From a virus: 31,744 bases of DNA. The stretch spans positions 1 through 31,744 of IMG/VR virus record IMGVR_UViG_3300049053_000026; one strand, given 5' to 3'. Made by a program: the position numbers and the translations under genes. The notes under the pieces were generated by a model. It had not been told where the DNA came from, made no database searches, and saw only the letters and a program-made list of their open reading frames with translations. Shown one piece after another: positions 6,620 to 10,076 of the stretch (the stretch's first letter is position 1; every line of letters begins with the position of its first letter).

Positions 6620-6825
6620 ACCGAGAATCTGAGCACACCCTCACCACGAAGGCAAGCACTCTGCCTACATTCTGAGCACAAAGCCAGGCGCGTGCGGCAT
6701 ATGCCGCGCGGCCCTGCGTTGAGCCGTATGCAACGGATGGGGCGCAAAGTGCCTAATAATGCCCAGGTCAAAGGCCCGAACCTGAGCTATGTGCATGCAA
6801 CCCACCTATGCCAAGATGTGGACTT
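6620..6825. promoter_or_regulatory. Divergent immunity control region with operator-like repeats
   Basis: This 206-bp non-coding gap separates the Cro-like gene (minus) from the repressor (plus) and should hold both promoters. It contains a direct repeat TCTGAGCACA at 6628-6637 and 6671-6680 (43 bp apart), a perfect 14-bp palindrome GCGGCATATGCCGC at 6694-6707, a TATGCAACGG half-site near 6727, an AT-rich TAATAAT island near 6754, and TGTGCATGCAACC at 6790-6802. The last recurs inverted at 7378-7390. Two different repeat families suggest two regulators reading one switch. Exact promoter boxes could not be fixed. Confidence 0.6.
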
Positions 6826-7338
6826 ATGGATGAGACGACCAAGAGGTTGGGGGAAGCGCTCCAGGCAGCGCGCGAAGGGCGCCGACCTCGACTCACCCAG
6901 CCAGAGGCGGCCAAGCAGCTCGGCGTAGGCCGCAGCACTATCCAGAACATCGAACGAGGCCAGTTCGCGAAGATCAATCGGACGGTGCGCCAGTACGCCA
7001 CCCTGCTCGGCTGGCCCGACGGCGCTGTAGAACGCGTCGCCGCAGGGCAGGCGCCGGCCGCCGGAGCCGAAGCGGAGGCCGAAACGGGGGAACCTGCTGG
7101 CAACTCAGGGCTACCTCTTCCGCCAGCCGTGGAGTATGAGCTCCGCACGAACGAGACGCTGGATTCGACCGTCATCAACTTGGGGCCGGACGAGGACGAC
7201 GGGCACGTCATCGTCGTGCTGCAAGGCCGCAAGGGCGCCACGCCGGAGGAAGTGGCGAAGATCGCGGAGCGCTATCGAAAGGCACGCCGCTATCTGCAAG
7301 CACTAGCCACTGAGGCTGACGAGGTTGCAGATCCTTGA
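6826..7338 (+). CDS. Xre-family phage repressor candidate (170 aa)
   Basis: Residues about 8-60 are a lambda-type HTH (LTQPEAAKQLGVGRSTIQNI, then ERGQF) followed by a helix. A Glu/Ala-rich linker leads to a C-terminal domain (YELRTNETLDSTVINLGPDE, then GHVIVVLQG) ending in a helical KIAERYRKARRYLQAL segment suited to dimerisation. There is no obvious Ser-Lys self-cleavage site, so a LexA/CI-type autoprotease is not supported. ATG at 6826 is preferred over 6808 (MPRCGL...) because it begins the conserved helix, though its ribosome site (GTGGA) is weak. Size, position and orientation, divergent from a Cro-like gene and upstream of int, support the lysogeny repressor. Confidence 0.7.
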   Translation: MDETTKRLGEALQAAREGRRPRLTQPEAAKQLGVGRSTIQNIERGQFAKINRTVRQYATLLGWPDGAVERVAAGQAPAAGAEAEAETGEPAGNSGLPLPPAVEYELRTNETLDSTVINLGPDEDDGHVIVVLQGRKGATPEEVAKIAERYRKARRYLQALATEADEVADP

Positions 7339-7377
7339 TTGACCCATGCGAGGTAGATGCATTTCAGCCAAACGTGT

Positions 7378-7390
7378 GGTTGCATGCACA
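7378..7390 (-). promoter_or_regulatory. Inverted copy of the repressor-region 13-mer
   Basis: GGTTGCATGCACA is the reverse complement of TGTGCATGCAACC at 6790-6802. The two copies bracket the repressor gene, one before its start and one between it and the next gene. They are candidate operators for autoregulation or looping. Confidence 0.45.
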
Positions 7391-7434
7391 GACAGTCACC
7401 GAGAGGGGGCACCGCTCGGCGAACAGGAGCAGTC

Positions 7435-7839
7435 ATGCTCAAAATCGAGGTGAAGCGTCATAGCAAGCGCGAGGACTACTTCGAGCCCTGGATTGAGAGA
7501 TTCGATCACGGTGGTGGGTGGAGGTTTCACTTCCACTGGGACGACATCAGCGACGAAGGCGTAGAGGCCTTCCGCGAGATCTACGAGCAGCAGTCGACGT
7601 GCTGGCGCCCGCGTGCGGCCGATGCGCCGCGCGGCCCGCACATCCCCAACAAGATGGAGCGGAAAGCCGTACTGCCCGACGGTGAGAAAGTGGCCGTCTA
7701 CGACACGCCAGACGGCAACCTCTACATGGTGCGCGCCGACCTCATCTCGGAGCGAGGCGCCCGCCTCATGGCCCGCGCCCAATGGGAGATCTCCCGACAC
7801 TGGGAGCGCATCCCGCCTGAGGAGCGGACGGGGGAATAA
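7435..7839 (+). CDS. Unknown protein between repressor and integrase (134 aa)
   Basis: ATG at 7435 follows AGGAG and fixes the start; the frame upstream runs through the operator-like region and is not needed. The protein is charged and aromatic (DYFEPWIERFDHGGGWRFHF, HWDDISDEGVEAFREIYEQQ). It has a beta-rich middle (VLPDGEKVAVYDTPDGNLYM) and a helical end (RGARLMARAQWEISRHWERI). No membrane or catalytic motif is seen. It sits in the lysogeny transcript with repressor and int, so it could be expressed in lysogens, but its function is unknown. Confidence 0.7.
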   Translation: MLKIEVKRHSKREDYFEPWIERFDHGGGWRFHFHWDDISDEGVEAFREIYEQQSTCWRPRAADAPRGPHIPNKMERKAVLPDGEKVAVYDTPDGNLYMVRADLISERGARLMARAQWEISRHWERIPPEERTGE

Positions 7840-7873: not shown

Positions 7874-9172
7874 ATGGCCTATGCGGAGAAGGTCTACAAG
7901 GTCCGCAACGGGGTGAAGACGAAGCAATTCACCTGGCGAGTCAAGTACAAGGCGCCGGACGGGCACGTACCGGAGGAACTGTCCAAGTCCGGCTTCGCGA
8001 CGAAGAAGCTCGCGGAGGACTGGGGGAACGAGCAGGAGCGGCTGATCCGGGAGGGGACCTGGATCGATCCTGCGAAGGCCACGGTGACGTTCGGCGAGTT
8101 CGCGCGCACGTTCATGAAGTCCCGGAAGAAACGCGGCCGCACGACCGGTACGCGCTGGGACAAGTTGGAGAACCACATCCTGCCGCGCTGGGACGGCGTC
8201 CCGATGCGGAAGATCTCGTGGTTCGACGTCGACACCTGGCAGCAGACCATGGACATCGAGGACGTCAGCCGCGGGCACTGCGTCAGCCTGATGTCGACCA
8301 TCATGACCGCGGCCGTCGACGCCGGGTACGTGACGGTGAACCCGCTATTCGGCCGGCGGCGCACGAAGGACACGTCCGGTGACGCGGCCCGGCCAAAGGC
8401 GCCGAAGGTCAAGCGGGACGGCGGCCCGCGGCCGGAAGACGCCGTCCTCCTGGCGGAGCGGCTCGGCCCGGCGGTCGGCGTCCACGTACTCACCACGGCC
8501 TTCGGGGGGCTGCGGTGGGGCGAGGGCCTCGGCCTGCACCGGGACAACACGCTGCTGTGGCGGCGCCAGCCGTGGGGGGCCGGCGAATTCGCCTGCCCGA
8601 TCCTCCGCATCAAGGAGGAGTACGCCGAGTACCAGGAGCGCGACGAGGACGGCGCCAAGAAGGGCTACGTCCTGAGGCTGGAGCCGACGAAGAACGACGG
8701 CTCGACGCGGGACGTGGACGTGCCGCCGTTCCTCGCTCTGCTGCTGAGCTACCACCTACAGGACTGGCCGCACGAACGTATCTTCTGCACGCCGTCCGGG
8801 AAGCCGTGGCGGCGGGGGAACTGGTCGCGCACCTTCCGGCCGGCCTGCGACGGACGGCAGGAGCGGGAGAAGCGCCAGGGCGTGGCGTACCGGGCGGCGT
8901 GGGATCCGATCCTGCCGGGCCTGGATATGCGGGCCCTGCGCGCGCTGCACGACACGCTGCAGTCGGAGCTTGGTGTGAAGGAGCCGCTCGCCTTCGAGGC
9001 GGCCGGGCACCGGCGGCCTGGCATCAAGCGGCACTACCAGAAGCCGACCCCGGCGATGCGCGCCGAACGGCTCGACGGCCTGGAGGAGACTTTCTGGCGC
9101 GCGCTGCGTAACGTGGGGTTGAGGACGTTGTGGAACAGGGTGGATCTCCGAAAACGGCCCCCGGAGAGTTGA
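7874..9172 (+). CDS. int: Tyrosine integrase (432 aa)
   Basis: Catalyses site-specific recombination between attP just downstream and a tRNA-Arg gene. Residues 1-65 form an arm-binding domain, about 70-160 a core-binding helical domain, and 185-415 the catalytic domain. Box I is GGLRWGE (R214); the beta-hairpin Lys is probably K273; box II is MRALRALHDT (R356, H359); box III is AGHRRPGIKRHYQK (H379, nucleophile Y388). In box II the usual H of HxxR is R353 (RALR) when aligned to typical Streptomyces integrases (HGLRHSHKT). ATG at 7874 follows AAGGGGG. Length is normal for large actinobacterial tyrosine integrases. The stop codon overlaps the first arm repeat of attP. Confidence 0.9.
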   Translation: MAYAEKVYKVRNGVKTKQFTWRVKYKAPDGHVPEELSKSGFATKKLAEDWGNEQERLIREGTWIDPAKATVTFGEFARTFMKSRKKRGRTTGTRWDKLENHILPRWDGVPMRKISWFDVDTWQQTMDIEDVSRGHCVSLMSTIMTAAVDAGYVTVNPLFGRRRTKDTSGDAARPKAPKVKRDGGPRPEDAVLLAERLGPAVGVHVLTTAFGGLRWGEGLGLHRDNTLLWRRQPWGAGEFACPILRIKEEYAEYQERDEDGAKKGYVLRLEPTKNDGSTRDVDVPPFLALLLSYHLQDWPHERIFCTPSGKPWRRGNWSRTFRPACDGRQEREKRQGVAYRAAWDPILPGLDMRALRALHDTLQSELGVKEPLAFEAAGHRRPGIKRHYQKPTPAMRAERLDGLEETFWRALRNVGLRTLWNRVDLRKRPPES

Positions 9173-9198
9173 CCTCCTAAATTCCTCCTAAATGATCA
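9166..9198 (+). repeat. attP arm repeat, copy 1
   Basis: 33-bp direct repeat matching 9421-9453 at 32 of 33 positions. Each copy contains CCTCCTAAA twice, 11 bp apart. It begins inside the last codons of int and lies 56 bp before the tRNA core. Likely an arm-type integrase binding site. Confidence 0.65.
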
Positions 9199-9254
9199 CT
9201 CGCGATGCAACGGCAGCGGGTGTCACCAGGAGGTATCCCGGTTCGAAGCGCCAT

Positions 9255-9297
9255 TCTCCTAAAGCGGGTGTCGCAGGTTCGAATCCTGCCGGGGGCA
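9255..9297 (+). other. attP core: 3' part of tRNA-Arg(CCU)
   Basis: The sequence reads as the 3' portion of a tRNA gene. It has the anticodon loop CTCCTAA at 9256-9262 with anticodon CCT at 9258-9260, the 3' anticodon stem AGCGG, a variable loop, T-stem GCAGG (9273-9277), T-loop TTCGAAT, matching CCTGC (9285-9289), acceptor strand CGGGGGC (9290-9296) and discriminator A. No matching 5' half (GCCCCCG, D-arm) precedes it, so this is not a functional tRNA. It is the identity segment phages carry so that the target tRNA-Arg(CCU) is rebuilt on integration. Confidence 0.8.
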
Positions 9298-9314
9298 CAG
9301 CGTTGAACAGGGCT

Positions 9315-9355
9315 AAGGCCCCGGAACTCCCAGGTCAGGGGGCATCCGGGGCCTT
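9315..9355 (+). terminator. Terminator hairpin downstream of the att core
   Basis: AAGGCCCCGGA (9315-9325) pairs with TCCGGGGCCTT (9345-9355) over a 19-nt loop, and TTCTC follows the stem on the plus strand. It is well placed to end int transcription or, after integration, the rebuilt tRNA transcript. Confidence 0.65.
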
Positions 9356-9420
9356 TCTCATGCCTCGTGATCCCACTCTGCCTACACACTGACTACACCC
9401 TAAATACGCGCTCACTACTG

Positions 9421-9453
9421 GAGTTGACCTCCTAAATTCCTCCTAAACGATCA
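9421..9453 (+). repeat. attP arm repeat, copy 2
   Basis: Second copy of the 33-bp repeat, 124 bp beyond the tRNA core end, with one T/C difference from 9166-9198. Its presence on the side opposite int shows that phage-type DNA continues past the core. Confidence 0.65.
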
Positions 9454-9483
9454 TGGCGTTTCCGCAGGTGAGCCCAGACGCGA

Positions 9484-9518: not shown

Positions 9519-9839
9519 CCTGTGTGCCGGGGCCACCGAGAGGGGGCTCCATTTCAGTGACGCCCGGCACGAATGAGGCCGGCGCAGGTTCGGTGCGGTG
9601 CGCCGACTGATCCATGTCTATCAACCCAGGTCAGAGCGGGAAATCACCCATCCGTGTGAACGTGTGTTCGATTCCCAGACACTACCTGGAGCCCTGCGGC
9701 ATATGCCAGTAAGCCGCAGAGCTGCCATGGGGGGTGGCGTAGCCGGTGGCGCGGGAAGCAGCTGGGGGCCTGCGAAGATCACAGAAAGCCCGCTGTCACC
9801 GGGCTGACATATGATGATGCAGGTCAGAGCGTTTGTCGA

Positions 9840-10076
9840 GTGCTTCCCGACCCGCCCGACGATCGTGAATGGCTGCTACGAGAGAGCCAACGTATCGGCA
9901 GACGAATCCGAGACGAACGCATAGACCGCAACCTCACGCAGGAGGCCGTGTTCCTGCGGGTCCCGCTGACTCGGAGCTTCTACCAGGAGATCGAGTCTGG
10001 GCAGGCGAACCCCACACTCGACACGCTGCTACGGATCTCGCGCGTCCTCGGTGTCACCATCGACCTCCTCCGCTAG
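9840..10076 (+). CDS. Small Xre-family regulator (78 aa)
   Basis: GTG start at 9840. The whole protein is a lambda-type HTH (RIGRRIRDERIDRNLTQEAV, then RSFYQEIESGQANPTLDTLL, ending RISRVLGVTIDLLR) that ends soon after the fifth helix, with no effector domain. A TATGAT box at 9810-9815 could drive it. The ribosome site is weak (AGGTCAG, 12 nt upstream). It lies beyond attP, outside the main switch, so in a prophage it would sit near one end. The shared 13-mer palindrome upstream (9695-9707) suggests cross-talk with the main repressor region. Confidence 0.75.
   Translation: MLPDPPDDREWLLRESQRIGRRIRDERIDRNLTQEAVFLRVPLTRSFYQEIESGQANPTLDTLLRISRVLGVTIDLLR

Follow-up and report, generated by a model that had tools for sequence, protein, structure and literature searches.

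The attachment sites of Cluster J mycobacteriophages (Omega, BAKA) lie in a tRNA-Leu gene, contain a 44-bp core that starts at the anticodon loop, and are flanked by paired 10-bp arm repeats, P1/P2 and P3/P4, with HTH genes located upstream of int (PMC3706429). Within Streptomyces, phages VWB and RP3 use tRNA-Arg(AGG) (PMC8724576), and several elements accrete at a tRNA-Arg gene (PMC9513070). In tRNA-dependent lysogeny, by definition, the core is about 10 bp long and the phage carries a tRNA of its own (PMC10865867).

The DNA analysed here (the window), 31,744 nucleotides long, constitutes one entire viral record, IMGVR_UViG_3300049053_000026. The plus strand carries an HTH gene, a small ORF, int, and attP in this order, and the terminase, portal, capsid, tail, and lysis genes are located on the minus strand (Table 1). 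The locus has the same architecture as the Cluster J sites, and differs from them in the arm consensus, the tRNA, and the host genus, which is Mycobacterium for Cluster J. Intact host genes for tRNA-Arg(CCT) have a 3' part identical to the 44-bp core, which falls within the annotated attP cores of RP3 and VWB. Both observations agree with the initial annotation, which placed the attP in tRNA-Arg(CCU) and proposed a hotspot shared with VWB; the same site is indeed used by VWB and RP3 (PMC8724576).

The core is flanked by two 33-nt direct repeats, which are 97% identical and 255 bp apart. Within each repeat, an 11-bp unit (ACCTCCTAAAT) is joined to a second one (TCCTCCTAAAT/C), and GATCA comes next. 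The left repeat and the int stop codon overlap. The arm word CCTCCTAAA occurs four times in the window, twice in each repeat and nowhere else, where 0.04 occurrences are expected. The core word TCTCCTAAA at 9255–9263 differs from it by one mismatch. The positions of the repeats, core, and word given in the initial annotation are exact. The right pair beyond the core is also found in relatives L009, L010, L013, L022, L027, L030, and L032, and it is located at the far ends of prophages integrated at tRNA-Val and chorismate mutase. As in other attP sites of the tRNA type, the core is the 3' part of a host tRNA, and the arm direct repeats on its two sides are kept in relatives. The locus does not belong to tRNA-dependent lysogeny, since the 44-bp core reaches the 3' end of the tRNA and there is no tRNA gene in the window. 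Upstream of the core, positions 9199–9254 contain a degenerate stretch, GCGGGTGTC...GGTTCGAA, which resembles part of the core and may be a remnant or a chance similarity.

Table 1. Features of the integration region in the window.
Feature	Position	Strand	Basis
HTH protein, perhaps a repressor or directionality factor; leader with CAGGTCAA at 6764	6808..7338	+	Upstream of int in almost all relatives
Small conserved ORF between HTH gene and int	7357..7839	+	Comparison of relatives
Lambda-type tyrosine integrase, 432 aa, start MAYAEK	7874..9172	+	74% identical to actinophage RP3 Int; PHROG_1 integrase E=6.9e-25
Left arm-site pair, units 9172–9182 and 9183–9193 (11-bp period), then GATCA	9166..9198	+	Same place in nearly all of about 40 relatives
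attP core, tRNA-Arg(CCU) 3' part beginning at the anticodon loop; 7-bp overlap presumed at 9256–9262 (CTCCTAA)	9255..9298	+	Cross-target comparison GCT-CTNNNAA-AGC
Terminator-like hairpin (AAGGCCCCGG / CCGGGGCCTT, then TCTC) just past the tRNA part; loop holds CAGGTCAG	9315..9355	+	Sequence
Candidate accessory site CAGGTCAG between core and right arms	9331..9338	+	Enrichment in relatives and Streptomyces genomes
Right arm-site pair, units 9427–9437 and 9438–9448, then GATCA	9421..9453	+	Repeat match
Degenerate CAGGTCA site GCGTTTCCGCAGGTGAG beside right arms	9457..9473	+	Same position reads GCAGGTCA in L013, L022, L027, L030, L032
Small XRE-type regulator; CAGGTCAG at 9820–9827 just upstream	9840..10075	+	Homologues in L009, L022, L026, L027, and others

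The closest named relative of the window integrase is that of actinophage RP3. The RP3 int-attP region (X80661; Streptomyces rimosus tRNA-Arg AGG) has the same core, a left arm pair at the same distance of 84 bp, and CAGGTCAG after the core. However, the RP3 arm word is TCTCCCAAAT, present twice, as opposed to CCTCCTAAAT in the window, and the RP3 record stops before the right arms. VWB, OnionKnight, and SF3 share with the window the tRNA-Arg(CCU) core and repeated arm words with an 11-bp period to the left of it. OnionKnight and SF3 also have arm words to the right, and CAGGTCAG flanks their cores. In contrast, the integrases of these three phages are only 24–26% identical to that of the window, and their arm words, GATGCCACA or GAGTCCACA, do not echo the core.

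The AlphaFold model of the window integrase (pLDDT 82) can be divided into three predicted strands and a helix (about residues 1–59), a helical core-binding domain, and a catalytic domain. Its best matches in the PDB are structures of full-length lambda Int (1z1b and 1z1g). As in phage lambda, the integrase is probably heterobivalent and the arm and core sites are separate; however, the two proteins are 14% identical in the structural alignment, the core of the window is in a tRNA gene, and its arms are arranged as tight pairs. The assignment to the lambda type is based on the separate N-terminal domain, as modelled, and on the catalytic residues Arg214, Lys273, Arg356, His379, and Tyr388, with Arg353 in place of the first histidine. 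The Pfam integrase model did not recognise the protein, the match to Pfam Arm-DNA-bind_4 was below the cut-off, and no solved structure was detectable from the integrase sequence.

Arg I of the catalytic set (Arg214, encoded at about 8513–8515), normally a strict requirement, is kept as arginine in the window and RP3 integrases. It is replaced by asparagine in the Thr-users and part of the Arg-users, and by glycine in most Val-users. The relatives with a replaced Arg I span L018–L021, L027–L034, and L051–L054, and keep the residues corresponding to Lys273, Arg356, and Tyr388. Their intact reading frames and duplicated cores argue that integrases without Arg I were probably functional. Arg223 is invariant across the integrase family. 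There is a precedent in IntDOT, in which a downstream arginine substitutes for Arg I (PMC8138268).

The distances between the left arms and the core in the integrase family are 71/72, 83/84, 93/94, 104, and 115/116 bp, in steps of approximately one helical turn. When merged into these five classes, the left distances fit a period of 10–11.2 bp better than random distances (p about 0.007–0.008). The right arm-to-core distances of 149, 159, 168–171, and 180 bp change in similar steps. Throughout the family, the arm pairs keep their sequence, their order, and their phase on the helix, and the spacing pattern supports the possible formation of looped arm-core complexes like those of lambda. In such a complex, the N-terminal domain of the integrase would bind the paired CTCC(T/C)AAA arm sites, and the C-terminal domains would bind the anticodon-stem half-sites (GCT and AGC) that flank the 7-bp anticodon loop. 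Strand exchange inside the loop would enable the phage-borne tRNA 3' half and the terminator-like hairpin to rebuild the host gene, and upon integration the hairpin would come after the rebuilt tRNA gene.

To compare arm words with insertion targets, we gathered about 40 relatives with 39–92% identity. According to their cores, 18 target tRNA-Arg(CCT), 10 tRNA-Val(TAC), two tRNA-Thr(TGT), and three the 3' end of the chorismate mutase gene, and five further relatives adjoin tRNA-Val in the opposite orientation. The Val target is proven, with att duplicated in G006 and G284, where the cores are 60 and 38 kb apart. Insertion into the 3' end of chorismate mutase is proven for L057 and L059, in which duplications of 56–60 bp are separated by 54–60 kb, and was assigned to L061 by sequence. 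The duplicated cores of the integrated relatives are indirect evidence that the integrase would bind the arms and recombine attP with attB. The relatives keep the arm word CTCC(T/C)AAA, in most cases as two tandem copies with an 11-bp period and GATC behind them. Arm words of the TCTCC(C/T) type are found in every target group, and with few exceptions they form the 11-bp pair. The arm word is kept in the Val-targeting L020, L030, L031, L032, L034, L051, L054, L056, L058, and L060, in the Thr-targeting L019 and L033, and in L057, L059, and L061 at chorismate mutase; L031, for example, has CTCCTAAA twice next to the core CTTACAAA. The sequences of L023, L024, and L008 stop at att or close to it, and yielded either no arm pair or just the left arm. 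In L012, L014, L017, L028, L051, and L052, a terminator hairpin of the GACCGATCATGGTC type, together with TGACATC repeats, is located downstream of the displaced tRNA 3' end. Several of them seem to have another integrase gene after these, in convergent orientation, which suggests tandem elements at the same site.

In the tree of the integrases, from which L035 with its very long branch and odd composition was excluded, the Arg-users branch from within the Val- and Thr-users, and the Arg target is therefore derived, so that the arms predate it. The tree contains three target changes, and only these are independent comparisons. The triplet of the arm at the anticodon position is CCC or CCT in most units irrespective of the target. 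The similarity of arms to their own core is 6.48, the same as the permuted value of 6.48 (p = 0.51, in a permutation that ignores relatedness), and the likeness of arms to the Arg loop is equal or higher in elements that do not target tRNA-Arg. Covariation of the arm word with the core was thus not found among the relatives, as the targets switch without a change of the arms.

The most probable interpretation, to which we assign a probability of about 0.92, is that the locus is an ordinary attP of a temperate Streptomyces siphophage in non-integrated DNA, and that the similarity of its arms and core is a coincidence of the Arg target, because the relatives keep the arm word while inserting into different genes. 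The initial annotation had considered that the arm-binding and core-binding domains of the integrase recognise almost identical words, or that the arm sites are copies of the tRNA core placed into the flanks. In either case the arm word and the core should travel together, which they do not. Dual recognition would account for the exact 8-bp identity between the arms and the core loop in the window, which dinucleotide shuffles reproduce with a chance of about 2–3%; such sharing is notable for a single pair and unremarkable across many scanned windows. However, the arm word is unchanged when the core is CTTACAAA, CTTGTAAA, or the chorismate mutase sequence, and the arms lack the stem half-sites GCT and AGC common to the tRNA cores. 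Furthermore, the arms of the L013/L016/L022 clade have drifted to GACCAAA while the loop is still CTCCTAAAG. Taken together, these observations make a functional echo very improbable. The copying of the core has just as little probability: the arms resemble the core and are themselves tandem duplications, but Val-targeting outgroups with integrases down to 39% identity have the same arm word, and the Arg target is derived. Copies would also be expected to include the neighbouring core bases (AAAGCGGG), whereas the arms read AAAT or AAAC and then GATC. Conversely, the same Arg core is accompanied by unrelated arm words in VWB, OnionKnight, and SF3.

The coincidence can be traced to the composition of the loops. 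The three tRNA cores follow the pattern GCT-CTNNNAA-AGC exactly or almost exactly, and their common part is the anticodon stem together with U33, A37, and A38. The likeness of the window arms and core rests on CCT, which is the anticodon in the middle of the presumed overlap, and not on the flanking stems. The overlap of lambda-type integrases needs homology between the recombining partners rather than recognition by the protein. The middle of the loop would not be selected for reading by either integrase domain, and the arm word is probably an old property of the N-terminal domain, older than the use of tRNA-Arg(CCU). The arms and all three tRNA loops have CT...AAA in common, and a very ancient common origin of the arm word and the tRNA-loop word may be considered.

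The exclusion of the echo as a new mode of recognition removes a false lead. In the family, a single arm-site code persists while three tRNAs and one protein gene serve in turn as targets. This natural experiment suggests that retargeting may act on the core-binding side alone, which would be useful for the design of Streptomyces integration vectors. The loss of Arg I and the CAGGTCAG site provide specific, testable leads, and may matter more than the echo.

In the window, CAGGTCAG is found at positions 9331, 9627, 9820, and 6764, which include the leaders of the HTH (6808) and XRE (9840) genes. In the integrase family, the motif CAGGTCA shows an approximately eightfold enrichment up to 400 bp from the core. 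Nearly all copies are on the plus strand, and they lie near −53, +38 to +70, and +192 to +213 relative to the core. In 48 of 101 Streptomyces genomes, CAGGTCAG is located 15–45 nt after a tRNA T-arm (82 places), while a shuffled 8-mer is found there in seven of the same genomes (seven places). The reversed 8-mer CTGACCTG, initially used as the neutral control, is the same motif inverted, and was replaced by the shuffled one. The gap between the T-arm and CAGGTCAG peaks at 22–24 nt, smaller groups lie roughly one and two helical turns beyond the peak, and the site is preceded by (G/C) and followed by A(G/C). CAGGTCAG thus recurs, in phase with the helix, next to the tRNA attachment sites of Streptomyces integrative elements that are not related to each other. 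It is absent from two host tRNA-Arg genes that do not carry this phage. Literature searches for CAGGTCAG returned only chance matches or nothing bearing on the site. We tentatively propose, at somewhat less than even odds, that unrelated Streptomyces tyrosine integrases have in common an integrase-independent attP site, (G/C)CAGGTCAGA(G/C), positioned on one helix face relative to the tRNA core. It would bind a common accessory protein, which could be a directionality factor that the elements share or a bending protein of the host, and would then serve tRNA integration in actinobacteria as a general cofactor site.

The intact arms on both sides of the core indicate that the window is non-integrated DNA. 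The window aligns, circularly permuted, with a 42,563-bp contig of Streptomyces cellulosae NRRL B-2687 (contig 56, L073–L075), which contains an intact attP and is circular, as its 99-bp terminal direct repeat shows. Approximately 9.9 kb of this relative is absent from the window. Judging from the alignment, the window most likely represents some three quarters of a phage genome that is circular or permuted and has a length of about 42 kb, which is in accord with the free or circular DNA proposed in the initial annotation. The linear class of the record in IMG/VR and its ends without a repeat would fit an integrated prophage or tandem array, with the second 33-bp repeat belonging to flanking DNA. 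This possibility was rejected and has hardly any probability, because the right arms are positioned as in relatives that are not integrated (255 bp) and as at the att ends of integrated relatives, and because of the collinearity with the S. cellulosae contig. In the S. cellulosae isolate with the free attP, the tRNA-Arg site already holds another element, with cores 19.8 kb apart. Near the left end of the window, imperfect repeats, each about 47 bp long, are clustered at positions 882–1058. The cluster is kept in the S. cellulosae relative and may be a replication or regulatory region.
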